64,000 nucleotides of DNA from Lachnoclostridium sp. (GTDB lineage: Bacteria > Bacillota > Clostridia > Lachnospirales > Lachnospiraceae), in NCBI GenBank assembly GCA_021770065.1, contig JAETRR010000019.1, positions 1 to 64,000 of the forward strand, read 5' to 3'. The position numbers and the translations under genes are program-made. The notes beneath the pieces were generated by a model that made no database searches, had not been told where the DNA came from, and was given only the letters and a program-made list of their open reading frames with translations. Every line of letters begins with the position of its first letter. Positions within the stretch are counted from its first letter, which is position 1. This document shows, in pieces, positions 9,515 to 51,636 of the stretch.

Positions 9515-10879
9515 TCAGGAGAATAAAGCCTCCCGAATCACCTCACATACCGTAGGATGCGGGAAAATGGTTCTCTTTATGCTCTCCAGCGGAATCTTAT
9601 TCTCAATCATCAGTGCCAGAGAATAAATGTACTCTGACGCATAGGAGGACATCAATGCGGCGCCCACAATCACATCTTTCTGTGTATCAATGATAATCTT
9701 GCAGATTCCGTTACTCATTCCGTTTTCCGCCACATGACGGCCGCTGAAATTAATGGACACCTTCTTAATTGTATAAGGAATTCCGGATTCTTTTGCCTGC
9801 TCCTCGGACATTCCCACGAAAGCCGCCTCCGGACTGGTATACACCACGCCGCAGACTGCGTCATAGCTCATGGCATCCTGTTTTCCAAGGATGGTGTTGA
9901 CAGCTACCTCGCCCTCACGATAGCCCACATGTGCCAGCATTACTTTTCCGTTCACATCACCGATGGCGTAGACACCCGGCACATTCGTCCGCATCCGGGC
10001 ATCTGTCACAACAGCGCCGCGTTCCACCTGTACACCGAGATCCGCAAGTCCCTCAATATTGCTGTTGGGCCGGCGTCCCACACACATCAGCGCTTTATCA
10101 TAAGCGGCCACGTCTATTTTTCCGTCTCTTGTAAAGGTTACGACGCCATTTGCCACCTTTGTCACTCCACTGGAGAGATAGAAGGTTACGCCCTTTTTCT
10201 CAAGTTCCTGCTGAAGAAGAAGGCTCACTTCCCGATCATTGGGGCCTAATACCTTATCCATCATCTCAATTACGGTTACTTTAGAGCCCGCCTCCTGGAA
10301 ATATGCCGCCATCTCAAAACCGATAACACCGCCTCCTACAATCAGAAGCTTTTTGGGGATCTCCGTCATGTCAAGAATCTCGTCGCTTGTCATAACCGTT
10401 CCCTTTTCCAATTCCTCCTTTACTCCCTCAATTGGCGGCACAACCGGGGAGGAACCGGATGCGATAATTACATTTTTTCCGATAAAGGATTCATTTTCCG
10501 TAGACACAATCAGAGCACCATTCTCTTTGGACAGCCTGGCCGTTCCGTTCACTACCCTGACCTTTTTTCTCCTTAATCCCCCTGCAACGCCCTGTACCAG
10601 GGTTTTTACTACCTCGTTTTTCTTCTGGACAACCACCGCATGGTCCAGCGAAACCTCTCTGGCAGTTACTCCGTAAGGCTCGCCCGCTCCGTTGGCATAG
10701 TGATACACCTTGGATGCATACAAAAAGGTCTTGGTGGGAATGCATCCCACGTTCAGACAGGTGCCTCCCAGGTTCTTCTTCTCTATCAGAAGCACGCTCT
10801 TTCCGTGGTGCGCTGCATATTCCGCACTGTTATAACCTGCCGGGCCGCCGCCGATTACAATCACATCAAATTCCTGCAT
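9515..10879 (-). CDS. lpd: Dihydrolipoyl dehydrogenase (lipoamide dehydrogenase)
   Basis: This FAD enzyme re-oxidises dihydrolipoyl groups with NAD+. The 454-residue protein has the FAD motif GGGPAGYN (about 10-17), the redox disulfide in GGTCLNVGCIPTK (Cys41 and Cys46), the NAD motif VGGGVIGFEMA, the second FAD motif YAIGDVNG, and the catalytic HPT...E near the C-terminus. No 2-oxo-acid dehydrogenase or glycine-cleavage genes are adjacent, so its partner complex must be encoded elsewhere. The ATG at 10879 has GGAGG six bases upstream, and that site directly adjoins two tandem structured repeats filling the leader, so leader folding may influence translation. Confidence 0.93.
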   Translation of the reverse strand: MQEFDVIVIGGGPAGYNSAEYAAHHGKSVLLIEKKNLGGTCLNVGCIPTKTFLYASKVYHYANGAGEPYGVTAREVSLDHAVVVQKKNEVVKTLVQGVAGGLRRKKVRVVNGTARLSKENGALIVSTENESFIGKNVIIASGSSPVVPPIEGVKEELEKGTVMTSDEILDMTEIPKKLLIVGGGVIGFEMAAYFQEAGSKVTVIEMMDKVLGPNDREVSLLLQQELEKKGVTFYLSSGVTKVANGVVTFTRDGKIDVAAYDKALMCVGRRPNSNIEGLADLGVQVERGAVVTDARMRTNVPGVYAIGDVNGKVMLAHVGYREGEVAVNTILGKQDAMSYDAVCGVVYTSPEAAFVGMSEEQAKESGIPYTIKKVSINFSGRHVAENGMSNGICKIIIDTQKDVIVGAALMSSYASEYIYSLALMIENKIPLESIKRTIFPHPTVCEVIREALFS

Positions 10880-10890
10880 TATTACCTCCA

Positions 10891-11106
10891 TTCCAGTTCC
10901 GCAATATTCCCCTTAAGTACACCTGGATCTAGATTGATTTCCAGCCGCAGTCACCTGCGTCTGTAAATCAATCTGTGCACTTTGTGGAATATTGCTGTTT
11001 CCAGTTCCGCAATATTCCCCTTAAGTACACCCGAATCTAGATTGATTTCCAGCCGCAGTCACCTGCGTCTGTAAATCAATCTGTGCACTTTGTGGAATAT
11101 TGCTGT
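10891..11106 (-). repeat. Two tandem 108-bp two-stem hairpin repeats in the lpd leader
   Basis: Two units with an exact period of 108 bases (10891-10998 and 10999-11106), almost identical, begin TTCCAGTTCCG on the plus strand. Each folds on itself: outer stem GCAATATTCC with GGAATATTGC plus AAGTACAC with GTGCACTT (one A-C mismatch); inner stem AGATTGATTT with AAATCAATCT, CAG with CTG, CGCAG with CTGCG, with C-T mismatches between blocks and a TCAC loop. On the minus strand the last unit runs directly into the lpd Shine-Dalgarno. Related units occur at 20058-20298. Confidence 0.9.
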
Positions 11107-11127
11107 TTCCAGTTTTCTCATAGCTCT

Positions 11128-11157
11128 ATCATACAGTCCACAAACACAAAAAAGCAA
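11128..11157 (-). promoter_or_regulatory. Possible lpd promoter
   Basis: On the minus strand TTGCTT (11157-11152) and TATGAT (11133-11128) are 18 bases apart. If used, the lpd transcript would begin with both structured repeats as its 5' leader. The -35 match is moderate. Confidence 0.45.
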
Positions 11158-11166
11158 GGGGATCTT

Positions 11167-12213
11167 TTATTCCCCCTTAACATATCTGCTGCTTTCCCCT
11201 TCTAAAATTTCTGGAGACAATATAATTTTTTGAGCAATATCTTTAATCTGCTCGCCCTGCTCTGTCTCTTCTCCTGTCTTTATCCGCGTCAAAAGTCTTT
11301 TTGCCACAATGCTTCCGATATTTTCAATGGGCTGCGTAATCGTTGTAATCGTCGGAGAAATCAATCCCGTATTATCTATAAAATCAAAACCAATCAGTGC
11401 AATATCCTTCGGAATTTTCAAGCCCTCTTCCTTAATGGCACGCAGCGCTCCGCAGGTCATCTTGTAAGAGCTGACATACACGGCCGTGAAAGGCTCCTTT
11501 TCCCGGTTTTTCAACAATTCTTTCATACAATTGTAGCCGCCAAGTTCTTGAAAATTCCCCATCTTCATCAGCTTCGGATTGATGGTCAGCCCGTGCCCCT
11601 CCATACCGCGGATGTAGCCCTGGATTCGCTCCATTCCCGTAGTTTCGCGCTCATTACCCGAGATAATAGCAATATCTGTATGCCCTTCCTTTACAAAAGC
11701 ATCAATCGCCATTGCGCTGGCGCGGCTATTATCCAGAATCACGCAGTCCTCATAAGCCGGATTGATATTCGGAAGATTATCAATAAAAATAACCGGAACA
11801 GAACTCCGAAAATACATATCTAACGCTTCGTGATGATCCGACACAGTTGCGAGAATCAATCCGTCTACACGCTTCTCATACATCAGCTTAATATACGCGT
11901 CCTCCTTCTCCGGATTTTCATCGGAATCTGCCAGAAGTATCGAATATCCCGCTTCAAAAAAAATAGAATCTGCCGCCTTTATAAACATATAAAAATAATC
12001 CCGAATATCCGGAACAATAATACCTATTGTATTTGTCTTACTGTTTTTCAGGGAACGGGCAACCTGGTTTGGAACATAATTATGCTCTCTCGCTATCTTC
12101 ATAACCCTTTCTTTTGTTGCTTCCGAAATTTTTCCCTTTCCATTTATAACTCTTGAGACAGTGGATATAGAGCATCCTGATTCCTCCGCTATCTTTTTGA
12201 GGTTATATTCCAT
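11167..12213 (-). CDS. LacI-family transcriptional regulator 1
   Basis: A 348-residue repressor-type regulator. The N-terminal helix-turn-helix (LKKIAEESGCSISTVSRVING, about 5-25) and hinge helix are followed by a periplasmic-binding-protein-like effector domain (NTIGIIVPDIRDYF through the C-terminus). It is closely similar in sequence and segment order to the second LacI regulator at 28236-29261; both have DYF, SYI/AYIKLMY and VDGLILATVSD segments, so they are likely paralogues. AGGGGG precedes the ATG. It probably binds one or more of the GCAA-N4-TTGC boxes upstream of the three island operons; the effector is unknown. Confidence 0.9.
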   Translation of the reverse strand: MEYNLKKIAEESGCSISTVSRVINGKGKISEATKERVMKIAREHNYVPNQVARSLKNSKTNTIGIIVPDIRDYFYMFIKAADSIFFEAGYSILLADSDENPEKEDAYIKLMYEKRVDGLILATVSDHHEALDMYFRSSVPVIFIDNLPNINPAYEDCVILDNSRASAMAIDAFVKEGHTDIAIISGNERETTGMERIQGYIRGMEGHGLTINPKLMKMGNFQELGGYNCMKELLKNREKEPFTAVYVSSYKMTCGALRAIKEEGLKIPKDIALIGFDFIDNTGLISPTITTITQPIENIGSIVAKRLLTRIKTGEETEQGEQIKDIAQKIILSPEILEGESSRYVKGE

Positions 12214-12243
12214 TGCCGTGTTCCCCCTAAATCAATTTCCCAT

Positions 12244-12273
12244 ATTATACCAAATCGCCAAGTCTAAATACAA
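12244..12273 (-). promoter_or_regulatory. Promoter of LacI regulator 1
   Basis: On the minus strand TTGTAT (12273-12268) and TATAAT (12249-12244) are 18 bases apart, about 30 bases before the start codon. Confidence 0.6.
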
Positions 12274-12403
12274 TGATTTTTTTCTTTTCCAATCATTTGT
12301 GTTTTAGCTGCTATATTTAATTTACCATGATTTGCTCTTGTGAACAACTAAATGTCTGTATTCTTTCCGCCGCAGCACAGAAAGCGCTGCTCTTTTCGTG
12401 ATC

Positions 12404-13378
12404 TCAAAGATTAAACTGCACTATGCAGAATCCCGCATAAATACACAACAGCAGAATTCCCTGTGCGCGCTTCAGCTCTCCCTTTACAAGCACCGGCACT
12501 ACAAGAATCGCCATAACAAGCAGCATCAGCGGAATTTCCAGTATAAGAGAAGCATTCATTCCCAAAAACACTGCACTTTGCGGAGTGTGAAACGGCGCCA
12601 GAATCATAGATGTTCCGCTGACCAGTACCAGATTAAATAAATTGGCTCCAATGACATTGCCGAGAGAAAGCGCTCCATGCCCCTTTATCAGAGAGCTGAC
12701 CGCCGTAACCAGCTCCGGCAGACTGGTTCCAAGCGCCACAAAAGTCAAAGCGATTACAGATTCAGGAACTCCCAATGCCCGGGCAATTAAGATTCCGTTC
12801 TCGACAAGCAAATTCGCTCCTGCCGCAATTAAAACCGCTCCAAATATGAGAAAAAACAAATGTTTCGCAACCCGGGATGCCGTGCGGACCTGTTCTTCTC
12901 CATCGCCTTTGCCGGACGTATCAAAACTGCCTTTTACTTCTTTTGCACTGCAGATAAGATATATAATAAACATTATGAGCAGCAGGCCGCCCACAGGCCG
13001 CCCAAACCAGCCGCTGCCATATGCTGTAATGCAGTAAACCGCTGCCGCTGCGAAAAAGAATAAAACCGGCAGCTTCAAGGCTTTCTTATCAGCTTTTCCC
13101 GGCCGTATTGTAATTGTAATCGCCGCAATCAGAGAAGTATTGCAGATAATGGAACCGATAGCATTCCCATAGGCAATTTCACCGTGTCCGCTTAAAGCAG
13201 AAGTCGTTGAAACCATAACTTCCGGCAGGGTAGTTCCGATAGAAACAACCGTTGCACCAATCAAAAGCTCCGGAAGCCGGAAATATCGGGCTATTCCCAC
13301 AGCACCGTCCACAAACCAGTCACCTCCTTTAATCAGACACACAAGTCCCAATATAAAAAGCAAAATAACTGCTGACAT
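12404..13378 (-). CDS. Calcium/sodium exchanger family (CaCA, YrbG-like) membrane protein
   Basis: This cation/Ca2+ antiporter-family protein has 324 residues and about ten membrane segments. The two diagnostic alpha repeats are GATVVSIGTTLPEVMVSTTS with GNAIGSIICN in the first half and ALTFVALGTSLPELVTAVSS with GNVIGANLFN in the second; the acidic residues in TLPE and SLPE are the expected ion ligands. A short acidic cytoplasmic linker separates the halves. Start is the ATG at 13378, eight bases after AGGAG. A strong hairpin separates it from the upstream GntP gene, so it is probably a separate transcript and not necessarily part of the catabolic function. Confidence 0.88.
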   Translation of the reverse strand: MSAVILLFILGLVCLIKGGDWFVDGAVGIARYFRLPELLIGATVVSIGTTLPEVMVSTTSALSGHGEIAYGNAIGSIICNTSLIAAITITIRPGKADKKALKLPVLFFFAAAAVYCITAYGSGWFGRPVGGLLLIMFIIYLICSAKEVKGSFDTSGKGDGEEQVRTASRVAKHLFFLIFGAVLIAAGANLLVENGILIARALGVPESVIALTFVALGTSLPELVTAVSSLIKGHGALSLGNVIGANLFNLVLVSGTSMILAPFHTPQSAVFLGMNASLILEIPLMLLVMAILVVPVLVKGELKRAQGILLLCIYAGFCIVQFNL

Positions 13379-13420
13379 CGTACATTCTCCTCTCATCAAA
13401 TGCCTGTACATAAAGCTTCA

Positions 13421-13464
13421 AAAAAGGATCGGAGTTCCATGATTTGGAACATCCGCTCCTTTTT
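13421..13464. terminator. Terminator after the GntP operon
   Basis: A long inverted repeat (AAAAAAGGATCGGAGTTCC against GGAACATCCGCTCCTTTTT, two mismatches) has A/T runs on both sides. On the minus strand it lies 34 bases after the GntP stop and ends in TTTTTT. Confidence 0.85.
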
Positions 13465-13497
13465 ATATCAGCTCTTATTCACTTGTTTTATATCCTG

Positions 13498-14805
13498 TTA
13501 ATACATCATCGGACCTACAATGATTGCAAAAATGGTAATCAGCAGCGGAATCAAAGAAGATACAATCAAGATGTATTTATACGCTTCTTTATGTGTCAGT
13601 CCGCATACCGTCAAGGTCGTAACAATAAATCCATTATGAGGAGTGTTGTCAAAAATGTCGCATGCCAGACTTCCGATACGGTGAAGAAGTTCCGGAGAAC
13701 ATCCCTGTGCAATAAAATCCTCTGCAAACAGGGAAATCGCAACACTTACTCCGCCGGATCCGGAGCCTGTCATTGCCGCTACTGCCGTTGTTGCCACGGA
13801 AAATGTAACATAAGGACTTCCGTTCAGTCTTCCAAGCAGTTCCACCAGATACTGAAACCCACCGGTCATCTTTACAACGGTTGCCACGGCGACAATTGCG
13901 CCGGTATTAAACATTGCCATTTTCGCATCGTTGAATCCGACTGTGAACAGTTCCGAAAATCCCTTTACTCCGCCAATACTTTTCGGGAATAAAATACACG
14001 TTGCAATGACGCCTGCCGTACCGGCAACTAAAATGTTCATGTTTAAAACATTAAGGACTATCAGAAATACAATCATCGGAATAAATGCAATCCAGGGGTT
14101 TTTAACCTTCGGCGCACTCAGATATTTGTCAATCTTCTCCTGTACTTCCGGAGTCGCATCAAAACCTTCTCCGCGCTCCCTGCATTTTTTAAACTGCCAC
14201 TCAAAATACACAATCAGAAGCGCAATACAAATCGCACAGCAAATCAGCGCCAGTGCCGGAGCCGCCTTGGGCGAGGTTCCCAGAAGCTGTGCCGGCATCA
14301 TATTGCTAATCTGCGGAGAGCCGGGAAGCATATTACATGCAAATGACGTTCCGGCAGCCGCAATTGCAGCCGGTATGAGCTTACGAGGCAGATTTGCTTT
14401 CTGAAATGCATACAGGTACATCGGATATACCGTAAAAACAATTACGAAGATGCTGACGCCCCCATATGTAAGAACTGCCGTTGCCAGCATAATTCCGTAA
14501 ATGGCAAAGCGATCGCTGAATAACTTGCTGAACACCTGAGAAACTGCCAGAGATGCACCGCACTGCTCCATAAATTTTCCAAATACGGCACACATAATAA
14601 ACAGAAACAGATTGCTGCAGATAAATCCCGTCAGGCCTGTTGCATAATCGCCGACCATTAAATCAACAATATTAAAGCCGCTTGTAACCGCAATAATCAG
14701 AATACTGATCATTGCCGAAAGCAGTGAATTCACCCCTTTAAAACACAGGAATGCCAGAACACCCAGCGCAGCCAATATGCCAATCAAGCTAATTGTTAAT
14801 TCCAT
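13498..14805 (-). CDS. GntP-family permease (sugar-acid/organic-acid symporter)
   Basis: The 435-residue transporter has 12 or more hydrophobic segments. Family features include the N-terminal LGVLAFLCFKGVNSL region, the ALTYGGVSIFVIVF-type motif, LPGSPQISNMMP, the TGSGSGGVSVA segment and the C-terminal DIFDNTPHNGFIVTTL motif of the gluconate:H+ symporter family. Relatives import gluconate, other aldonates, glycerate or beta-hydroxy acids. I start at the ATG at 14805 (GGGGGA upstream). It is the last gene of the unit that begins with the tail-like genes and includes two SMP-30 proteins, so a sugar-acid-like substrate is likely, but not proven. Confidence 0.88.
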   Translation of the reverse strand: MELTISLIGILAALGVLAFLCFKGVNSLLSAMISILIIAVTSGFNIVDLMVGDYATGLTGFICSNLFLFIMCAVFGKFMEQCGASLAVSQVFSKLFSDRFAIYGIMLATAVLTYGGVSIFVIVFTVYPMYLYAFQKANLPRKLIPAAIAAAGTSFACNMLPGSPQISNMMPAQLLGTSPKAAPALALICCAICIALLIVYFEWQFKKCRERGEGFDATPEVQEKIDKYLSAPKVKNPWIAFIPMIVFLIVLNVLNMNILVAGTAGVIATCILFPKSIGGVKGFSELFTVGFNDAKMAMFNTGAIVAVATVVKMTGGFQYLVELLGRLNGSPYVTFSVATTAVAAMTGSGSGGVSVAISLFAEDFIAQGCSPELLHRIGSLACDIFDNTPHNGFIVTTLTVCGLTHKEAYKYILIVSSLIPLLITIFAIIVGPMMY

Positions 14806-14925
14806 AAATAATTCCCCCATTTCTTTTAATTAAAATTACCGGCTCCAAATAATATCTGACTTTTTTCTTATCTTTTCCTTAATCCCCCTTTCTCACGGTC
14901 ACTTTTAACACAATGACAAGGCGTC

Positions 14926-15843
14926 TCAACATCCGATACCAATCCGTGCTCCCGCAATTTTCACTTTCAAAGCAATTAACATATTGGAGCAGCAGACAAA
15001 CAGAGATTTCATATCCGTACCGCCAAAGCATAAATTGCCAACCGTCTTCGGCATGGCGACAATGCCTAAATAGTCTCCGTCTTTTGTATAGATATGAATT
15101 CCGCCCTGCGCAGCCAGATATATATTGCCCTGCTCATCAATGCAGAGACCGTCCGGCAGGCCGTTGTCGCATCCATAATCTTTTGTCTTCGGAAACACGC
15201 GCTTATTATAAAAATCTCCATTGTCATCTACGTCAAACACAACAAGCTCTTTCATCTCAGTATCTGCAATATAAATTGTTTTCTCGTCCGGAGAAAAAGC
15301 CAGACCATTCGGCTCACAGACCTCGTCCGTCAAAAGTACGGTTTCTTTTGAGACCGGATCAATCCGGTACACTCCCTGCACCGGCTGAGGCATAAGCCCT
15401 GCAATACCGCATCCGCCCTGGCGTCGCCCGAAATGCGGATCTGTAAAATAAATAGCTCCATTTGATTTTTTTACAATCACATCATTGGGACTGTTAAGTT
15501 CTTTACCGTTATAATGCGAAGCCATGACTTCATATCCCGTTGTATCATCATTCATCCGCGCAACACGATGGGTAAAATGTTCGCACAGGAGAATCCTCCC
15601 CTCCGAGTCATATGCTTCTCCATTTGCCGCATTGGTATACGAACGGATCGTCGAAAATCCTTCTTTTTCACTCCATCGATACGTCCGCCCTCCCCTGCGC
15701 GTATCACTGAAAGTCAGGTATTCCTTAACAGGATTCCAGATCGGTCCTTCCGAAAATTCACAGGCATCAACCAAAATATTCGGGTTCTGGTTGACATCAA
15801 TCAAATCATGCAGGCGTATATCAAAAATTTCAGACTGCAGCAT
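14926..15843 (-). CDS. SMP-30/gluconolactonase-like protein A
   Basis: A six-bladed beta-propeller enzyme family of metal-dependent sugar lactonases. The 305 residues keep the core signatures: FSEGPIWNP (metal-binding Glu), NSPNDVIVKKSNGAIYFTDPHFG (metal Asn and Asp region), EPNGLAFSPDEKTIYIADT and GLPDGLCIDEQGNIYLA. AGGAG precedes the ATG. It lies between a more diverged SMP-30 relative and the GntP permease. A role in hydrolysing an aldono-lactone or similar ester is likely by family; the exact sugar is unknown. Confidence 0.88.
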   Translation of the reverse strand: MLQSEIFDIRLHDLIDVNQNPNILVDACEFSEGPIWNPVKEYLTFSDTRRGGRTYRWSEKEGFSTIRSYTNAANGEAYDSEGRILLCEHFTHRVARMNDDTTGYEVMASHYNGKELNSPNDVIVKKSNGAIYFTDPHFGRRQGGCGIAGLMPQPVQGVYRIDPVSKETVLLTDEVCEPNGLAFSPDEKTIYIADTEMKELVVFDVDDNGDFYNKRVFPKTKDYGCDNGLPDGLCIDEQGNIYLAAQGGIHIYTKDGDYLGIVAMPKTVGNLCFGGTDMKSLFVCCSNMLIALKVKIAGARIGIGC

Positions 15844-15883
15844 GTTACCTTCTCCTTCCTGATTTTAATCTCAATGCAATAGA

Positions 15884-16717
15884 TTACCGGCCTTTAACAT
15901 CCATGGTATATAACTGATCCCCGCAAAAAATATATAATGTCTCCGAATTCCTTCCCCCAATGCAGGCCGCCATGCATTTCTGCTCCGTTTCGATTACACC
16001 CAGAAGCATTCCGCCGACATCATACAAATGAACGCCTGCGTCCGTAACCACGAACAAATTATCTTTCTCGTCAACAATCATCCCACGGATCTCTGACGCA
16101 TCCTCCGGCGCAAGGTAGCAGTGAATCCTTTTGTATTTTAAAGTGCCGTCATCCAGGATATTAAATTTTGTAATCATTCCCTCTTCTGATTCGGCGATAT
16201 ACAGAAACCGGTTATCTGCCGAGCAGCAGACAGCAGAAGGTGAGACAGCATCTGTGCCTGCGCAGGAAGCCGTCAAACCGATTGGATTGGCAAAATATAC
16301 TGCAGGCTTCTCTTTGCAGTTATCAGAGAAGTAAATCATACCGTTTGAATGAATTGAAATTCCTCCTAATTTTTGAAAGCCGCGATCCTGAAATGCTTTC
16401 ACAACCGTGTGCAGCTCTTCTCCGTCCCGGTAGCTGCGTTCAATACTGGCTTTGGCTTCATTTACATATATAAGTCTCCCATTCCAGTCAAAAGCGATAT
16501 CACTTATGATATCCGTGCTTTCGCGGATACAGGACTTCCTGCCTTTTGCATCAATGCTGTACACCCGGCCATCGCTGACGGCAGCTGCCAGGCAGCAGTT
16601 CCGGCGGCTGTAAGCGGCCGCTGATACAGTTCCCGGGAACTGCATAAGAGCTTCCCTGTCGTCCCCTTTCCGGAACAATTCCCCAAAATTATGGTGCTTC
16701 TCCAGAATCTTTAACAT
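15884..16717 (-). CDS. Divergent SMP-30/gluconolactonase-like protein B
   Basis: The 277-residue protein has the same propeller character as its downstream neighbour but is weaker: GGISIHSNGMIYFSDN corresponds to the NDVIV..FTDP region, then AVCCSADNRFLYIAES and GMIVDEKDNLFVVTDAGVHLY. The usual N-terminal EGP metal-ligand motif and the Asn of the NDV motif are not evident, so lactonase activity may be reduced or lost; it could be a binding or sensing paralogue. GGAGG precedes the ATG. It lies 40 bases upstream of protein A in the same unit and is probably a diverged duplicate. Confidence 0.7.
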   Translation of the reverse strand: MLKILEKHHNFGELFRKGDDREALMQFPGTVSAAAYSRRNCCLAAAVSDGRVYSIDAKGRKSCIRESTDIISDIAFDWNGRLIYVNEAKASIERSYRDGEELHTVVKAFQDRGFQKLGGISIHSNGMIYFSDNCKEKPAVYFANPIGLTASCAGTDAVSPSAVCCSADNRFLYIAESEEGMITKFNILDDGTLKYKRIHCYLAPEDASEIRGMIVDEKDNLFVVTDAGVHLYDVGGMLLGVIETEQKCMAACIGGRNSETLYIFCGDQLYTMDVKGR

Positions 16718-16732
16718 TTCCTCTCCTCCATT

Positions 16733-17011
16733 TTATATTTCCTCTTCGGATGAATATGGTTCTCTCTCTTTTTCTTCCTCTATGCGTTCCACTATTTTTC
16801 CGTCTATCAGTTTGTAATTATAATGTGCACAGCTTTTTCCAAAACTCATAAGCCCTTTTTCAAGATAACACTCCGATGCCTCCCGATATTTCAGGCCGAC
16901 TCCCTCATCAATTTTGCAAAACGTGGAAAAATCCGTCAGATAATAGTCCGAATTAATCTCAATGATATTGTTTCTGCTGTCAGTTTTTACATATACCTCA
17001 TAACTATCCAT
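16733..17011 (-). CDS. Small phage-tail-type protein
   Basis: This encodes 92 residues starting MDSYEVYVKTDSRNNIIEIN, followed by a DYYLTDFSTFCKIDEGVGLKY segment and a C-terminus of the KLIDGKIVE type with a Glu-rich end. I recall this as the style of small tail-module proteins in Lachnospiraceae prophages; that is recognition, not a search. It directly follows the larger tail-like gene (eight-base gap) and precedes SMP-30 protein B. No other phage structural gene is nearby, so it is a captured or residual pair and not a prophage. Confidence 0.5.
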   Translation of the reverse strand: MDSYEVYVKTDSRNNIIEINSDYYLTDFSTFCKIDEGVGLKYREASECYLEKGLMSFGKSCAHYNYKLIDGKIVERIEEEKEREPYSSEEEI

Positions 17012-17019
17012 ACTCTACC

Positions 17020-17757
17020 TCATGCAATGCGAAAACAGATTGGAATACCAAATTCTTTCATGGCAGGGTTCTGGTTCGGAAGTCCGAAACGCCCGACATG
17101 GCAGAAATTCTCCGGGCTGCCGTCAGCCGTGCTGCTTGTCCACCAGTTATACCGGTCGCCTCCGACTCCCAACCGCTTTACAATATGCAAAGCGGTTCCA
17201 TGAAAAATTGGATATTGAACAGGCAGTCCATATCCCCATGGTTTTTCACAGAAGATGCCGCACCCCCATACTTCAGCTTCTGTGGGCAGCCAGAGCTTAC
17301 CAAGATTTTGCCAGCTCCATGCAGTTGCTTTACTTCCGAGCTTACATTCGACAAGCCCTCTTTTATTTACAATCAACTGTTGTATCTTGGCAGGAATCAG
17401 AGGCAGAATTTCTGTCTGTAAAACCATATTTAAATGGGAACAGACATACCCTCCGGAATTCGTAGGCTTCAGATTGTACGCGTAACGCTTTTTTAAGCAG
17501 TCTCTTGATATAAAGTCAATATGTGTTCCCAGAGGAATCTCTCCGTAGCCCACATAGGTATTAATCCCTGCAATTTCCATATATACTTCTTCCTGATTGG
17601 ACAGAACAATGATTTTGTAATCCCCGATCTGAATATCCGCCAGATCATTCTTTTTTGCCTTCTCCGATAATTCAGCCCAGGTAAACGGCAGTTCTTTTCC
17701 TGTATACAAAGAGTAATCCGCTTTTGCTTTATAATGAGCCTTATCCTGTTTTTCCAT
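17020..17757 (-). CDS. Phage tail-like protein with DUF6273-type C-terminal domain
   Basis: About 245 residues. The middle contains GTHIDFISRDCLKKRYAYN and the C-terminus has LWLPTEAEVWG, then YNWWTSSTADG, a phenylalanine/valine strand and FGIPICFRIA. This resembles the DUF6273 domain found in many phage tail-associated and secreted proteins. Start at the ATG at 17757 (AAGGA upstream), because the ATG at 17775 has no site. It is the first gene after the LacI box at 17919-17930, so it appears to be expressed with the SMP-30/GntP genes. The role in catabolism is unclear; carbohydrate or surface binding is a guess. Confidence 0.55.
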   Translation of the reverse strand: MEKQDKAHYKAKADYSLYTGKELPFTWAELSEKAKKNDLADIQIGDYKIIVLSNQEEVYMEIAGINTYVGYGEIPLGTHIDFISRDCLKKRYAYNLKPTNSGGYVCSHLNMVLQTEILPLIPAKIQQLIVNKRGLVECKLGSKATAWSWQNLGKLWLPTEAEVWGCGIFCEKPWGYGLPVQYPIFHGTALHIVKRLGVGGDRYNWWTSSTADGSPENFCHVGRFGLPNQNPAMKEFGIPICFRIA

Positions 17758-17918
17758 ACACTGCTGTCCTTTCATGCTTTTATATCAGAATTATTCTGCA
17801 AACGTTATCTTCTATTTGACGATACTTTTTCTTTCTGGCAATGGATTAATGGTACAATTTGCACATTTTTATATTTTTTTTAAGTGATTTATTATTGCTT
17901 AGTTACACTTTTTATTGT

Positions 17919-17930
17919 GCAATCGTTTGC
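17919..17930. promoter_or_regulatory. LacI-type operator box upstream of the tail-like/SMP-30/GntP unit
   Basis: GCAATCGTTTGC, identical to the box at 26810-26821, in an otherwise AT-rich 340-base gap (17758-18099). A weak half-match GCAAACGTTA lies at 17798-17807. No convincing -35/-10 pair could be fixed beside it. Confidence 0.65.
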
Positions 17931-18099
17931 TTTATTATAAGTCTATTTTTCGTCCTTGTCAATACCTTTTTGACATACTCTCATCTCGTGCCTTAAATTT
18001 TTTCGTCTCCATTACAAGCATCCCTCCGTCGTACGGTCTCCTCCTGCTATACGAGATACATCGAAGCAGATTATTCGAAAAAAACACCTGCAAATAAGA

Positions 18100-18141
18100 A
18101 GTTGTCTGGATATAAGGCAGCAGGCTTATTTCCAGACAACT
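18100..18141 (-). terminator. Terminator of the dehydrogenase/DapA operon
   Basis: A 17-bp stem with one mismatch (18100-18116 with 18125-18141) lies 12 bases after the acetyltransferase stop. Its arms (GTTGTCTGGAAATAAG on the minus strand) resemble the terminators at 29295, 42692 and 49458. Confidence 0.8.
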
Positions 18142-18153
18142 CTTCTTTCATCC

Positions 18154-19131
18154 TCACATATAAAAACCATCCATCTCATAATAAGCAAAATTCTCCCGCC
18201 TGTCCAGGCGCCCCAGCACGGAGACAATGGGAACATTGCTTTCCAAAACCAGTGAATACTGTCCTTTGGGAATCTGATATCCCGCATCGCCTATGGGATA
18301 ATCCAGGCGGAAACAATTTACCCTTCTTGCTCCTACACGCAGGACACACTGCTCTGGCTCTCTGTCTGTAAAAAGCACCGTAACGCGGACAACTGCTTCC
18401 GTATCCGTACAATTCGTAATTGTTAAGGCCTCATGCCCGAAAGGCTCCTCATTGCCCTGTGGAGGCATATCTCCGTCTGCAAATATCCATACATTTTTCC
18501 CATAATTCATACATCTCTCCTTTTCTGTCTGTCCCTTTATCTCATTGCCGTCCTCGTCTATATAGCGGATCACTCTGCAGGGATTTCCTGCGGCAACGCA
18601 ATTGTCAGGGATGTCATGGGTAACCACGCTTCCTGCTCCAATTACAACATTGCTTCCGATCGTCACTCCCGGAACCACTCTGCAGCCTCCGCCAAACCAG
18701 ACATTATCCCCCACTGTGATTGGATAGGCCCATTCATAAAACTGATTTCGTAGTTTATAGCTGATAGGATGGTGCGCCGTATAAAATCCGCAGTCCGGAC
18801 CGATAAACACGTTATCTCCAAAGGTTATCTTAGCCGGGTCCATAAAGTTGCACCCGTTGTTTGCAAAAAAATTATCTCCTGCCTCAATATTAAATCCAAA
18901 TCCGCAAAATACATTGGGTTCCACATCCGGATTTTTTCCAACCCTTCCAAACAGCTCCCGAATCAGCTCTTCTCTGCGCTTTTTATCGCCCGCCGGCGTC
19001 TGATTATACTCCTGGCAGAGCATTAGCGCCCGGGCTACCAGCTCCTCACGTCCGCGAAAGGAAGCATCATATCTTTCCCCCCGGGCGCATTTCTCAAATT
19101 CTGCCCTGTCGTAATCAATATTGTTTCTCAT
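18154..19131 (-). CDS. Hexapeptide-repeat acetyltransferase fused to an ASRT (sensory rhodopsin transducer) domain
   Basis: 325 residues in two modules. Residues 1-190 are a left-handed beta-helix O-acetyltransferase of the maltose/galactoside type: an N-terminal cap with LCQEYNQT, hexapeptide repeats, the catalytic His in FYTAHHP (about 117-122), and GAGSVVTHDIPDNCVAAGNPCRVIR. Residues 211-325 match the pattern of the Anabaena sensory rhodopsin transducer domain: NVWIFADGD, GHEALTITN, VLFTDREPE, ARRVNCFRLD, then IPKG..SLVLESNVPIVSVLGRLD. ASRT domains are thought to bind small molecules such as sugars. The start codon has no clear Shine-Dalgarno; the gene follows the DapA-like gene by nine bases and may be translationally coupled. 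It ends the operon. Confidence 0.82.
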   Translation of the reverse strand: MRNNIDYDRAEFEKCARGERYDASFRGREELVARALMLCQEYNQTPAGDKKRREELIRELFGRVGKNPDVEPNVFCGFGFNIEAGDNFFANNGCNFMDPAKITFGDNVFIGPDCGFYTAHHPISYKLRNQFYEWAYPITVGDNVWFGGGCRVVPGVTIGSNVVIGAGSVVTHDIPDNCVAAGNPCRVIRYIDEDGNEIKGQTEKERCMNYGKNVWIFADGDMPPQGNEEPFGHEALTITNCTDTEAVVRVTVLFTDREPEQCVLRVGARRVNCFRLDYPIGDAGYQIPKGQYSLVLESNVPIVSVLGRLDRRENFAYYEMDGFYM

Positions 19132-19140
19132 AATTTCTTG

Positions 19141-20046
19141 TCAAAGAGTTATCTGATGTCTCTTCAGCACATCCTTAATAACTTCCATCTCCTCATCCGT
19201 CACGCTGGCTGTCGGCCGCTTCATCCAGCGCCTGCAGGTTCCGGCAAGCTCCATGGCTGCCTTTGTAATGGCAATTACATCCTTATCCACGCAGAAAAAC
19301 AGCTCGTCATAGAAGTCTGCAAATTTCAGATATTTTTCTCTGCATTCCTCAAATCTGCCCTCATTATAATCGTGAAGCATCTCCAGGCAGAGCTTCGGCG
19401 TAATATTGCCGGGAGCTCCCATAATAAAGCCCTGAACACCCAGGCAGATGGCGGGGAAGAATTCAAACTCATCTCCCGATACCATAATGAAATCCAGATC
19501 CTTATCCATCTTATTTATGATCCGCTGGATCTTGTCCGTAGTTGTAGACTGCTTCAGAGCCTGAATATTATCTAATTTCGCAAGACGATTCAGCATCTCA
19601 CCGCTGCAGTGGTGGGGATTCTCCGGGCAGTTATAGATCATAATGGGAAGAGCCGTCTTTTCATTGATATCCTCAAAAAAGCTTTCCAGCTCACTGTCTC
19701 TTAAACTGAAGAATTCCGTCGGTGTTACCAGAGCCATGTCGGCTCCTGCTTCCTTTGCGTCTTCAATGTACATTAAGATGTCGTCTATACAGGAGCCTAC
19801 ACATCCGGCCACAATCAAAGCGTCCGGAGCCTCATCCCGGGTAACGGCCGTGATCTTTTTGCGGTCCTCTCTGTTAATGTACTTTACTTCACCTGTATAT
19901 CCAAGAATAAAAAGGGACTCCATTCCGGCATCCAGGCACCGGCGCACAAGGGCGCGGTAGGATGTCTCATCAAAACTTCCGTCCTCATTCCATGCGGAAA
20001 GAACGGCTGGTGTAACAGTCTTTAATCTTTCAAGCGTTGCGTTCAT
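19141..20046 (-). CDS. DapA/N-acetylneuraminate lyase-family class I aldolase/deaminase
   Basis: The 301-residue (beta/alpha)8 Schiff-base enzyme has the substrate loop LGYTGEVKYINREDR in place of the usual GTTGE, the catalytic tyrosine in MIYNCPEN and the Schiff-base lysine in ALKQSTT, so it should be active. Family members include dihydrodipicolinate synthase, neuraminate lyase, keto-deoxy-sugar-acid aldolases and the pyrroline-hydroxycarboxylate deaminase of the hydroxyproline pathway. Beside a racemase/epimerase and a D-imino-acid-type dehydrogenase the last is attractive, but a sugar-acid lyase is equally possible. I start at the ATG at 20046; its GGAG lies at the edge of the structured repeat upstream. 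Confidence 0.85.
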   Translation of the reverse strand: MNATLERLKTVTPAVLSAWNEDGSFDETSYRALVRRCLDAGMESLFILGYTGEVKYINREDRKKITAVTRDEAPDALIVAGCVGSCIDDILMYIEDAKEAGADMALVTPTEFFSLRDSELESFFEDINEKTALPIMIYNCPENPHHCSGEMLNRLAKLDNIQALKQSTTTDKIQRIINKMDKDLDFIMVSGDEFEFFPAICLGVQGFIMGAPGNITPKLCLEMLHDYNEGRFEECREKYLKFADFYDELFFCVDKDVIAITKAAMELAGTCRRWMKRPTASVTDEEMEVIKDVLKRHQITL

Positions 20047-20057
20047 TTTTTTCTCCA

Positions 20058-20298
20058 TTCCAGTTCCGCAGTACCCAGTCTGTACACCCGGATATAGAAG
20101 GATTTCCGGCCGCAAAAACATGCGTCCGTAAATCCTTCTGTGCACAGCCTGGGTACTGCTGTTAAAACATATTCCAGTTCCGTAAAATCCCTCCCAGTAC
20201 ACCTTCACCTAAATCAATTTCCAGTCACAAAAAACGTGCCTGTAAATTGATTTGTGCACTCTGAGGCATATTACTGTTTCCAGTTCCGTAATATCCCT
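20058..20298 (-). repeat. Two hairpin repeats plus a half copy, same family as 10891-11106
   Basis: Units begin TTCCAGTTCCG at 20058, 20172 and (truncated) 20278. In unit 20058 the outer stem is GCAGTACCCAG with CTGGGTACTGC and CTGTACAC with GTGCACAG; the inner stem is AGAAGGATTT with AAATCCTTCT, CGG with CCG, CGCA with TGCG. In unit 20172 the inner stem is AAATCAATTT with AAATTGATTT, CAG with CTG, CAC with GTG. The A-C mismatch in the outer stem and the mismatches between inner blocks sit where they do in the lpd copies while the paired bases differ. Confidence 0.9.
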
Positions 20299-20309
20299 AT
20301 TTTTTTAAG

Positions 20310-21485
20310 TTATACTTCCTTCTCAAGCCTTGCGTCCATCTCCGGTGACAGGGGTTCGTAGCCGGTCTCCGTAATCAGATAGCCGGTCTCAACGCGCACG
20401 CCATGGTGCTTCGGATGTCCGAAAATACTGATATCAATAGATACAATCGAGCCGGGCTGCAGAACATCCGTACCATTGGGGCCGAAGAAAGGCCGCTCCG
20501 CTTCCATCAGTCCAAGACCGTGAACAAAGGGGCACACAATGTATTTTGTCCAGCCATGCTTCTCGTAAATCTTTGCGCCGATGGGATCCAGGGTCTTTCC
20601 TGTCTGTCCGGGTCTTAAAGCATCACGCGTCTTGCGGAACACCTCGCGGATTACATTCACGCAGTCCTTCTGCTCCTGTGTATACTCTCCCGATACGGGA
20701 AGGGTATCTCCCATAACGCCTGCATATCCGTTGTATCTGGGTGCGATGCCCACAAGCACCATATCGCCTGCCTGCATCGGTGTATTTGATGCCACAGGGG
20801 CAACTGCATTGCTCATAACGCCGGACCCGACCATAGTCTGGAACGCAAAATTATTGGCATTTCTGGAACGACAGGCATACTCTCCCGCTGCCGCAACCTC
20901 GATCTCTGTTGCGCCCGGTTTTACCTTTTTCTCCATTGCAAGCAGGGCCTCATAGGTCATGCCGAAGGCCGTCCGGATATTCTCTACCTCCCAGGGGCTC
21001 TTGAAATAACGGAGATAATCATATTCATCGGTAATGTCCACAAACTCCGCTCCCTTAAATCCTTCCTGAAGGAGCACATAAATGGAATGCGGAAAGTAGA
21101 AAGAGCCTACAATGCCGATTCTGTTAATATGTATTCCCTTATCCTGAAGGATTTTATTCAGATCATCAAAGCCGATAATCGTAGCGTTGGGATACTCCTC
21201 CTCCGGCACCATAAAAGGAGTAAAACAGTAATTCTCCGTGATAGCACTTGCATACTTTGCAAAGGGCGCGGACTCCGGTCCTCCGAGCAGGATGGGATCC
21301 GCTTCATTTGCAAATACCATAACCGCTTCCTTCTCAAACTGAGGGCACCAGCCGGTCAGATACCAGCCGTCCGCCACATTCAGCTCATCATAATAAATAA
21401 TTGCACAGTCCAGATTCTTCTCCTTAAGAATCCCTCTCACCTTTTCAACTCTTCGTTTTGTTTCCTCAAGATTGTAATAAGCCAT
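20310..21485 (-). CDS. M24 (aminopeptidase P/creatinase)-family protein, metal site incomplete
   Basis: The 391 residues have an N-terminal creatinase-type domain (1-160) and a C-terminal pita-bread domain. Metal-dependent M24 peptidases need Asp, Asp, His, Glu, Glu. Here the first Asp position (usual VxIDxG) reads VLVGIA (Gly246), the second (usual Y..D.TR) reads YAGVMGDT, the His remains in FVHGLGL (His322), the first Glu is Asp351 (VSIDIS) and the last Glu is present (GVRVETG, Glu366). Creatinase and ectoine hydrolase are metal-free members of this superfamily, so a non-peptidase C-N hydrolase is plausible. GGAGG precedes the ATG. It sits between a flavoenzyme and the DapA-family gene. Confidence 0.82.
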   Translation of the reverse strand: MAYYNLEETKRRVEKVRGILKEKNLDCAIIYYDELNVADGWYLTGWCPQFEKEAVMVFANEADPILLGGPESAPFAKYASAITENYCFTPFMVPEEEYPNATIIGFDDLNKILQDKGIHINRIGIVGSFYFPHSIYVLLQEGFKGAEFVDITDEYDYLRYFKSPWEVENIRTAFGMTYEALLAMEKKVKPGATEIEVAAAGEYACRSRNANNFAFQTMVGSGVMSNAVAPVASNTPMQAGDMVLVGIAPRYNGYAGVMGDTLPVSGEYTQEQKDCVNVIREVFRKTRDALRPGQTGKTLDPIGAKIYEKHGWTKYIVCPFVHGLGLMEAERPFFGPNGTDVLQPGSIVSIDISIFGHPKHHGVRVETGYLITETGYEPLSPEMDARLEKEV

Positions 21486-21527
21486 TTCCTTCCTCCTATT
21501 TCTAGTCGCTGCGCGACAGCACTAAAG

Positions 21528-21619
21528 GGTAAAGTCGCTTCGGCACACAGGTATTGAGAGAAACTTTCATTCGAAGGGCACTCATGAAAGTTCCTCTCGT
21601 GCGCCTTCCCGACTTTACC
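21528..21619. other. 92-base long hairpin between flavoprotein and M24 genes
   Basis: GGTAAAGTCG (21528-21537) pairs with CGACTTTACC (21610-21619); an inner 15-bp arm (21556-21570 with 21584-21598, one mismatch) is nested inside, with further GGCACAC/GTGCGCC pairing between them. It lies in the 187-base gap inside the operon and may act as an intercistronic RNA structure or partial terminator. Confidence 0.7.
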
Positions 21620-21672
21620 GTCCAGCAATAATATTTCTAATAAACACTTGACATTTCTTAGCTGGACAATAA

Positions 21673-39179: not shown

Positions 39180-39372
39180 GAATGGTGTACCTCCTTATAT
39201 TATTTGTCCACCAACCCGACGGATTTTTCATGGATATGAAAGAAAAACCTCTCTGCCAAAGACAGAGAGGTTTTCGAAAATCATTCTCATAAGGAAAATG
39301 CATCGTCCTCGGCAGGCGGCTCCAACCTTATGCCTTACGGCACCTGCTGTCTTCGGGTCGTGTTACATGCTA
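39180..39372 (-). ncRNA. Ribosomal protein L10 leader with attenuator
   Basis: On the minus strand the region upstream of rplJ holds the GACAGCAGGTGCC...GGCATAAGG...GCCGCCTGCCGAGG pattern of the L10 leader, followed by a strong hairpin (AAAACCTCTCTG, 39255-39244, with CAGAGAGGTTTT, 39274-39263) and T-rich tract that act as an intrinsic attenuator. In the known mechanism, excess L10 (or L10-L7/L12) binds the leader and stops rplJL expression. Confidence 0.85.
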
Positions 39373-39376
39373 TGCA

Positions 39377-51463: not shown

Positions 51464-51636
51464 GGGGGCGGCAGCAAAACCGGCTCTCAGGCTTTTCCAT
51501 ATCCGTGTTCGGACGGTTCGTGTACACCGCGTCTGCTCTTGCCGGACAAAAGTCCGTCAATATCAGACACGGCGTTCACGAACAGCCGGACACTTGATAT
51601 TGGAAAAGCCTGAGAGCCGGTTTTGCTGCCGCCCCT
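51464..51636. repeat. 173-base structured element with perfect 35-bp stem
   Basis: 51465-51499 and 51601-51635 are perfect inverted repeats of 35 bases. Inside, CGTGTTCGGACGGTTCGTG pairs imperfectly with CACGAACAGCCGGACAC, then an inner CGTCTG/CAGAC arm and a CGGAC-AAAA-GTCCG tip. Same length and partly the same core as 29295-29467. It lies 13 bases after the glycosyltransferase stop (terminator position) in the 350-base gap before transketolase. Confidence 0.88.

Follow-up and report, generated by a model that had tools for sequence, protein, structure and literature searches.

Covarying hairpin elements of two sequence families, apparently mobile and anchored at ribosome-binding sites, in Lachnoclostridium sp. 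and related genomes

A 64,000-nucleotide (nt) stretch of the genome of Lachnoclostridium sp. (assembly GCA_021770065.1, contig JAETRR010000019.1, positions 1 to 64,000; here called the window) holds hairpin repeats of two dispersed families, H (unit of ∼106 nt) and M (∼117 nt), which stand directly before the Shine-Dalgarno (SD) sequences of unrelated genes. Judged from sequence comparison, we favor, with some reserve, the reading that H and M are two families of nonautonomous, structure-recognized mobile elements that live at translation initiation sites. This reading draws on direct observations of placement, stem covariation, and sense-strand G·U pairs, of the same SD at element-free orthologous sites, and of near-identical copies positioned after older, divergent elements. 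The phenomenon itself is solid, and a structure-recognized, apparently mobile hairpin element with two sequence families anchored at ribosome-binding sites is new.

Within the genome that contains the window (G000; 4.14 Mb in 145 contigs, 92% complete), a DNA search with H gave 51 matches. A covariance model built from 31 H copies (R1) gave at least 142 matches at E ≤ 0.01, which is a lower bound, as 150 of 2,416 first-look candidates were scored and diverged copies (e.g., at loci L144 and L155) were missed; 119 of the matches were called sense (113 strong and 6 weak), and the remaining 23 overlap sense matches on the opposite strand. Reading of 100 loci of this genome yielded 121 sense H copies in 103 arrays, including a few doubtful weak matches (L062, L067, L068, L079, and L103).

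Placement was judged on the sense strand by a strict rule, namely an SD-like word ≤5 nt from the 3′ end of the array and an open reading frame (ORF) of ≥60 amino acids starting 8 to 22 nt farther on. This rule was passed by 94 of the 103 arrays, with the start codon 10 to 22 nt beyond the array end. The 100 downstream ORFs listed include, by eye, yajC, era, prfA, ftsY, ftsH, lon, thrS, glyS, leuD, nifU, pyrF, ung, nagB, and transporters; their functions are unrelated, and no shared pathway was apparent among them by eye. The SD after an H unit is usually TAGGAG(G), and the base before AGGAG(G) is T in 47 of 56 H sites, compared with 16 of 68 element-free SDs of the same loci. Arrays from G004 (same genus), G028, G212, G223, G310, and G319 passed the strict rule in 29 of 38 cases, and the nine that failed show, by eye, a variant SD (L320, L325, L339, L342, and L351), a further unit or remnant (L321 and L323), or an SD somewhat downstream (L330 and L346).

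H and M have a common hairpin plan: an outer stem, an internal loop, a GYGCAC:GUGURY helix with fixed G·U pairs, a 7- to 8-nt bulge on the 3′ side, and an inner stem. The apical part of H carries A·G mismatches, and its tail (e.g., CGGAACTGGAA) is followed directly by the SD. Conservation of this structure was assessed in a MAFFT alignment of 46 H units (5 from G000, 3 from G004, and 38 from five other genera), from which 10 of 51 units were excluded, i.e., eight further tandem-array units and the two units of L330. Pair-keeping changes on both sides were found at 28 of the 31 pairs; 94.0% of cells were paired, against 77.5% after shuffling, and the covariation score was 0.504, against 0.192, and no shuffle out of 500 reached the observed value by any of five measures. 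When the partner was slid by 1 to 3 columns, the score fell to 0.05 to 0.12, a comparison that favors the structure, which was derived from the same alignment; related rows also inflate the counts. The size of the covariation effect and its spread over genera leave little doubt that conservation of structure is real.

Cells with G·T outnumber those with A·C by 76 to 25 in the 46-unit alignment of H, by 50 to 4 in the first G000 alignment of H, and by 84 to 5 in M. The family has the marks of a structured RNA element, namely covariation beyond shuffles and a wobble bias of the sense strand, the latter mostly from a few fixed positions. Because the fixed G·U pairs lie on the sense strand, this strand, as RNA or single-stranded DNA, is likely the folded form. 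The H apical consensus TGCGGCTGGA is, as we presume, like the 3′-terminal region of 16S rRNA beside the anti-SD, a resemblance that may be due to chance.

Many H copies are preceded on their 5′ side by a second dispersed element, M, which has the same architecture and another sequence. The M core word was matched 129 times in G000 at ≤1 mismatch, against a single match to a control word. In M, the outer stem is 10 bp and the inner stem 15 bp long; between them lie an internal loop, the helix GGCGCAC:GTGTGTC with two G·U positions, and, on the 3′ side, a 7-nt bulge. The M tail (e.g., AGCGACTTAAAA) also leads directly into the SD. Tandem arrays of M have a period of ∼117 to 123 nt and end at an SD as those of H do; the 32 distinct M units identified by pattern in G000 and related loci were followed by an SD (16), H (9), another M (6), or a variant M (1). 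A prefix hairpin (TCCAGCTAAGAAATGTC...) was seen upstream of M at L023, L024, L092, L102, L115, and L215. TAG precedes it in four of six distinct cases, which may reflect insertion within the TAG of TAGGAGG.

Remnants of H are also found at SDs. The exact tail word CGGAACTGGAA occurs 190 times in G000 and the 5′ word CAGTAATATCC 71 times, with no occurrence of the reversed control word of either in this genome. Among 100 of the 190 tail places, ∼40 lie outside the listed copies, and 20 such regions were fetched: 4 are chance words in ORFs (L136, L137, L148, and L149), and 16 hold element tails, at least 11 of which (L139, L140, L142, L144, L145, L146, and L150 to L154) are, by eye, 5′-truncated H copies of graded lengths directly before an SD. 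Full arrays, too, often follow element sequence: by our own pattern, the sequence directly 5′ of the 103 arrays is an H tail in 41, M in 38, and neither in 24, and some of these 24 show tail-like flanks.

Indications of insertion come from recent copies. Seven H copies at seven loci have a mean pairwise identity of 0.984, the copy at L115 having the common sequence and the other six one private change each. All are full length and share one 5′ terminus, which follows M sequence, and one 3′ terminus, which precedes TAGGAGG in six of them and TGGAGG in the seventh. The M sequence 5′ of them is just 71 to 96% alike over its last 24 nt, so M was probably resident at these sites earlier and not carried along. 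Seven near-identical H copies between divergent M and an SD represent recent, precise insertion. More broadly, 24 copies have a counterpart of equal length at another locus with ≥96% ungapped identity, and every one of the 24 lies after M (15) or an H tail (9). The point of entry of a new unit thus seems to be the junction of a resident element with the SD.

Orthologous sites point in the same direction. yajC was recovered in 15, and era in 16, of the 16 genomes of the genus (G000 included). The position of the yajC SD is kept in the 13 of 15 orthologues that lack a recognizable H or M, as TAGGAGG in 12 and as CAGGAGG in G004, and six of these 13 sites belong to H-positive genomes. M stands directly before TAGGAGG at yajC of G005; the order in G000 is M, then H, then TAGGAGG. 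At era, G000 and G005 bear different H units, and a terminator-like stretch is present in G002, G005, G007, and G012 where G000 has H; the intergenic region was so altered by more than clean insertion. In era of G002 (L175), GGAACTTAAAA was observed directly before TAGGAG with no hairpin, possibly an old H tail. Further orthologue pairs show element-free sites (L069, L099, and L096) or differing content at the same SD, in loci fetched largely for holding an element, so that shared occupancy is overstated. At the few sites for which an empty orthologue could be aligned, inspection by eye revealed no target duplication of fixed length.

R1 matches were found in 9 of 61 genomes, i.e., 8 of 16 of the genus (G000 included) plus G028, and in 7 of 299 genomes sampled evenly across the family (7 of 298 genera), the latter counts being lower bounds from 13 candidates scored per genome. 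H thus occurs in five other genera, with quite different stems, and a sixth genus (G284) has a single putative match. Within the genus, M accompanies H in 8 of 8 H-positive genomes (129 matches in G000, 114 in G002, 21 in G004, 83 in G005, 3 in G006, 122 in G007, 186 in G012, and 63 in G013) and is found in 0 of 8 H-negative genomes. A 26-nt exact pattern, searched in contigs of 84,980 species, returned five assemblies only, four “Clostridia bacterium” isolates and “Bacterium 1XD21-13,” which we take to be a member of the Lachnospiraceae from mouse gut. A blastn search of plasmid and phage collections with one H copy gave no match, and none of five exact 17-nt tail matches in viral contigs has a hairpin upstream by eye.

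We postulate the following sequence of events. An enzyme working in trans would recognize the fold, not the sequence, and would act on the folded sense strand as RNA or as single-stranded DNA. A new unit would go in precisely between an existing element and the SD, by which the site would become an array; SD and gene would be left intact, and copies would consequently persist. Older units would decay as their 5′ ends were truncated and as tandem arrays expanded or contracted, and any effects on translation would be secondary.

Several observations weigh against this reading. Searches with the Pfam families RVT_1 and Y1_Tnp, other enzyme families not being searched, found no transposition machinery. 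RVT_1 is absent from G000 (92% complete) and G006, both incomplete drafts, and present in the other six H-positive and in four H-negative genomes. Y1_Tnp is absent from H-positive G004, G006, and G007 and present in H-negative G001, G008, and G015; the single match in G000 has a TAG stop inside, and nine examined loci with Y1_Tnp contain none of four H and M end words. The presence of neither RVT_1 nor Y1_Tnp tracks H, and both enzymes, reverse transcriptase and Y1 transposase, were rejected as partners. Nine of the 103 arrays failed the strict placement rule, two of them with a weak or no SD (L085 and L086); the other seven have an extra truncated unit before the SD (L014, L095, and L129), a contig end (L070), an M prefix following (L023), or doubtful matches (L062 and L103). 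Upstream and downstream tails often have identical locus-specific letters, and local duplication or conversion therefore accounts for part of the arrays. Two fixed positions hold most of the G·T cells of H (45 of 76 in the 46-unit alignment and 47 of 50 in the first G000 alignment), and three hold most of those of M (70 of 84), so that the strand bias reflects few events conserved in many copies. In the young set, L006 follows an M fragment, the H tail at L014:1400 is doubtful, and L070 and L101 are probably one locus at two contig ends. M in G006 is weak, with 3 matches against 0 to 2 per genome for the reversed control word. The identity of yajC to that of G000 is 95 to 97% in six of seven H-positive genomes, 91% in G004, and 87 to 92% in H-negative genomes; H-positive genomes may largely be one clade, and the co-occurrence of H and M may thus be inherited.

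The hairpins could instead be selected 5′ leaders, i.e., cis-acting modules (mRNA stabilizer, barrier to RNase III or RNase J, translational standby site, or protein-binding switch) that aid expression of the adjoining gene and were recruited many times. Abutment on the SD in the sense direction, fixed G·U pairs on the sense strand, strong conservation of structure across genera, and persistence at housekeeping genes (by eye) all speak for such a module. It is nevertheless unlikely, given downstream genes with no common function by eye, a yajC that lacks recognizable H or M in most orthologues, including those of six H-positive genomes, truncated H copies directly before the SD in at least 11 of the 20 tail regions by eye, element content that varies between species at the same SD, and a recent burst at sites already holding M. 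An explanation that dispenses with dedicated mobility, by homologous or microhomology recombination and replication slippage between tails beside SDs, is consistent with the many arrays directly after an H tail (41 of 103) or M (38), with the locus-specific letters often common to tails, with tandem arrays of identical units, and with mosaics that by eye are apparently joined at GGTGT. We consider it doubtful, as flanking M was not converted together with the near-identical H units of the burst and the homology available on the right-hand side is limited to the 6- to 7-nt SD.

Two further explanations are special cases of structure-recognized mobility. Transposition of single-stranded DNA by a tyrosine HUH transposase, similar to that of REPINs (hairpin-forming doublets of repetitive extragenic palindromic [REP] sequences) or IS200/IS605 elements and with CTCCTA on the antisense strand as the target, would explain the target-like preference for T before AGGAG(G) and the same two ends of the youngest copies, and compensatory hairpin changes are described as common for REPINs (PMC3116915). 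The distribution of Y1_Tnp (one stop-bearing match in G000 and none in three H-positive genomes), the lack of H and M end words at the nine examined loci, and the organization of REPs as two conserved sequences in inverted order, in contrast to H arms that both covary, render it improbable. Retro-insertion, in which element RNA with its 3′ end at AGGAGG primes on antisense CCTCCT at SDs and is copied by a reverse transcriptase in a cycle like that of a short interspersed nuclear element (SINE), could produce a constant 3′ end, many 5′-truncated copies, retention of sense-strand G·U pairs, and more matches to the tail word than to the 5′ word (190 versus 71, a bias overstated by unequal conservation of the end words). 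Since the seven youngest copies are full length with one 5′ end, unlike typical target-primed insertions, and RVT_1 was not found in G000, retro-insertion is reduced to a rival and appears very improbable; RVT_1 is also missing from G006 and occurs in four H-negative genomes.

Among known systems, ERIC, NEMIS, BOX/RUP, and EFAR are dispersed palindromic elements of ∼100 to 200 nt with conserved terminal repeats, some of them in mRNA untranslated regions; unlike H, they are not known to be restricted to the base adjoining the SD. Integron attC sites are folded single strands read by structure, with stems that vary with compensation, few fixed positions, polarized array growth, and a GTTRRRY core at which IntI acts. 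H resembles them in being a putatively structure-recognized single strand with compensated stems, few fixed positions, and polarized array growth but has no cassette genes, has no GTTRRRY core noticed in its tail, and is scattered over ∼100 sites. REP sequences and REPINs are described as short, mostly extragenic, hairpin-forming, high-copy, clustered sequences with compensatory hairpin changes (PMC3116915), all features that H shares. REPINs keep two conserved REPs and go with a REP-associated tyrosine transposase (RAYT) gene (PMC3116915), whereas both stems of H vary, nearly all of its arrays abut the SD in the sense direction, and its distribution is not followed by that of Y1_Tnp. Membership in the REPIN/RAYT system was accordingly rejected: three repeat-bearing genomes (G004, G006, and G007) lack a RAYT (Y1_Tnp) gene and G000 has one stop-bearing match, and in place of two conserved inverted REP cores, 28 of 31 pairs vary with compensation. 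H would nevertheless seem to work most like REPINs or attC-type folded sites. The TAACTGA repeats of Beggiatoaceae are 7-nt direct repeats (PMC4679880) and differ from H, a ∼106-nt covarying hairpin beside a canonical SD with evidence of insertion.

H also does not look like a classical miniature inverted-repeat transposable element (MITE). DDE-type MITEs have conserved terminal inverted repeats, but those of H covary, and its outer arms vary from copy to copy. A target-primed retroelement is disfavored by the finding of no RVT_1 in G000 and G006 (incomplete drafts), and a riboswitch or regulon leader was rejected on finding, by eye, that the 100 downstream ORFs have unrelated functions instead of belonging to one pathway. 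No Rfam family matched the window arrays at gathering scores (best subthreshold match, MIR5565 on array 1, 21.2 bits against a cutoff of 80), and membership in an Rfam family was rejected. No SD-abutting covarying hairpin family is described in the titles and abstracts of the open-access literature searched, an absence that is no proof.

It is possible, and we offer this tentatively, that H and M form a counterpart of safe-harbor SINEs, in which cassettes are added singly and in fixed orientation between the last tail and the SD by machinery reading the folded sense strand. Polarized arrays would then grow at ribosome-binding sites in several genera of one family, with native SDs as protected landing sites. 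A six-base TAGGAG target combined with purging of gene-breaking insertions was considered as an explanation of placement and looks insufficient: in 414 kb from related species, element-free TAGGAG sites comprise 25 SDs, 7 noncoding non-SD sites, and 71 coding non-SD sites, and the 61 element-bearing ones comprise 57 SDs by rule and 4 sites that by eye precede the start codon of a shorter or unclear ORF, a weak comparison, the loci themselves having been found via a TAGGAG-containing pattern. Bacterial palindromic repeats are usually cast as extragenic litter; here, two families stand nearly base for base at one position relative to the SD of ∼100 or more genes. If insertion is truly SD directed, it would give selfish DNA a new means of sparing its host and would place a strong RNA hairpin before many start sites of one genome, with testable consequences for mRNA decay and translation coupling. 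Both mechanism and effect can be tested directly with the help of the seven-copy burst and the element-free sites.

The H arrays of the window (Table 1) had been described in a first-pass annotation made from its sequence alone, which reported two full units near 10891 to 11106 and two plus a partial unit at 20058 to 20298, with matched changes in opposite arms. These units were recovered, all on the minus strand, and the arm changes are indeed compensatory. The mismatches reported as fixed do keep their positions; on the minus (sense) strand, however, “A-C” is a G·U wobble and “C-T” are A·G mismatches. Read on this strand, the four full units run CAG-outer arm-GTGCAC-inner arm-apical hairpin-inner arm-bulge-GTGTAC-outer arm-CGGAACTGGAA, and an SD follows the last unit of each array, as had been noted. 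Single-strand folds of the four units have energies of −25 to −58 kcal/mol (z, −5.0 to −9.8), with 0 of 200 shuffles as good for either strand, the minus strand giving the more stable fold for each. The framing word TTCCAGTTCCG has 9 matches in the window at ≤1 mismatch (5 exact, all in arrays), against 1.29 expected.

The wider claims of that annotation fared differently. Selection on structure is strongly supported by covariation, and the covariance-model search it had proposed produced many further copies in G000 and relatives, which show covariation beyond shuffles and a preference for SDs. The family, which it did not recognize, remained without an Rfam match at gathering scores in the window arrays. 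An element inserting beside ribosome-binding sites, one of its two suggestions, fits the many copies at SDs, the same SD at element-free orthologous sites, and the recent near-identical set; the other, a leader specific to lpd or the DapA-family gene or sensing a metabolite, was not upheld, as no regulon was apparent by eye, orthologues lack the element, and truncated remnants are common before SDs. A ligand-sensing leader role is thus unlikely.

Table 1. H and M elements of the window and the genes that follow them
Feature	Coordinates	Strand	Basis and remarks
H unit, SD-proximal in lpd array (array 1)	10891..10997	−	R1 113.2 bits; fold z −6.8
H unit, second in lpd array	10999..11105	−	R1 112.6 bits; 98% identical to 10891..10997 unit
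SD TGGAGG of lpd-type gene	10885..10890	−	Read in sequence; start codon taken at 10879
Dihydrolipoamide dehydrogenase-type gene (lpd), downstream of array 1	9515..10879	−	Pfam Pyr_redox_2 and Pyr_redox_dim
H unit, SD-proximal in DapA-family array (array 2), GC-rich stem variant	20058..20161	−	R1 103.5 bits; fold z −9.8
H unit, second in DapA-family array	20172..20276	−	R1 109.6 bits
5′-truncated H unit (3′ tail only), upstream of full units	20278..20298	−	Read in sequence; weak R1 match 20278-20320
SD TGGAGAA of DHDPS (DapA-family) gene	20051..20057	−	Read in sequence; start codon 20046
DHDPS/DapA-family gene, downstream of array 2	19141..20046	−	Pfam DHDPS 1.9e-39
M-family element, missed in first-pass annotation	21499..21666 (M 21499-21619; 5′ prefix hairpin to 21666)	−	Ends at SD of M24 peptidase gene
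SD TAGGAGG directly after M element	21492..21498	−	Start codon 21485
M24 peptidase gene downstream of M element	20310..21485	−	Pfam

The longest ORF of the lpd gene starts from 10891, yet the SD favors 10879. Remnants like the truncated unit of array 2 were also found upstream of other arrays. Pfam searches with four window proteins identified, besides the three gene products of Table 1, a LacI-family regulator upstream of array 1.

Other repeats were observed in the window and in related loci. A long near-perfect palindrome (∼51464 to 51635; arms GGGGCGGCAGCAAAACCGGCTCTCAGGCTTTTCC and its reverse complement) is intergenic and not at an SD, and an 18-nt word from its arm does not recur elsewhere among the loci fetched. 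At L222, from a related species, an H remnant is preceded by a gene whose 3′ part contains an inverted-repeat element (TAGTCCGTACC...), another MITE-like family. Repeats with a 21-nt period occupy 58541 to 60027 of the window, with 13 copies of a 46-nt family and 8 of a 53-nt family, and an L10 ribosomal leader (Rfam RF00557, 78.3 bits) is located at 39233 to 39374 on the minus strand.

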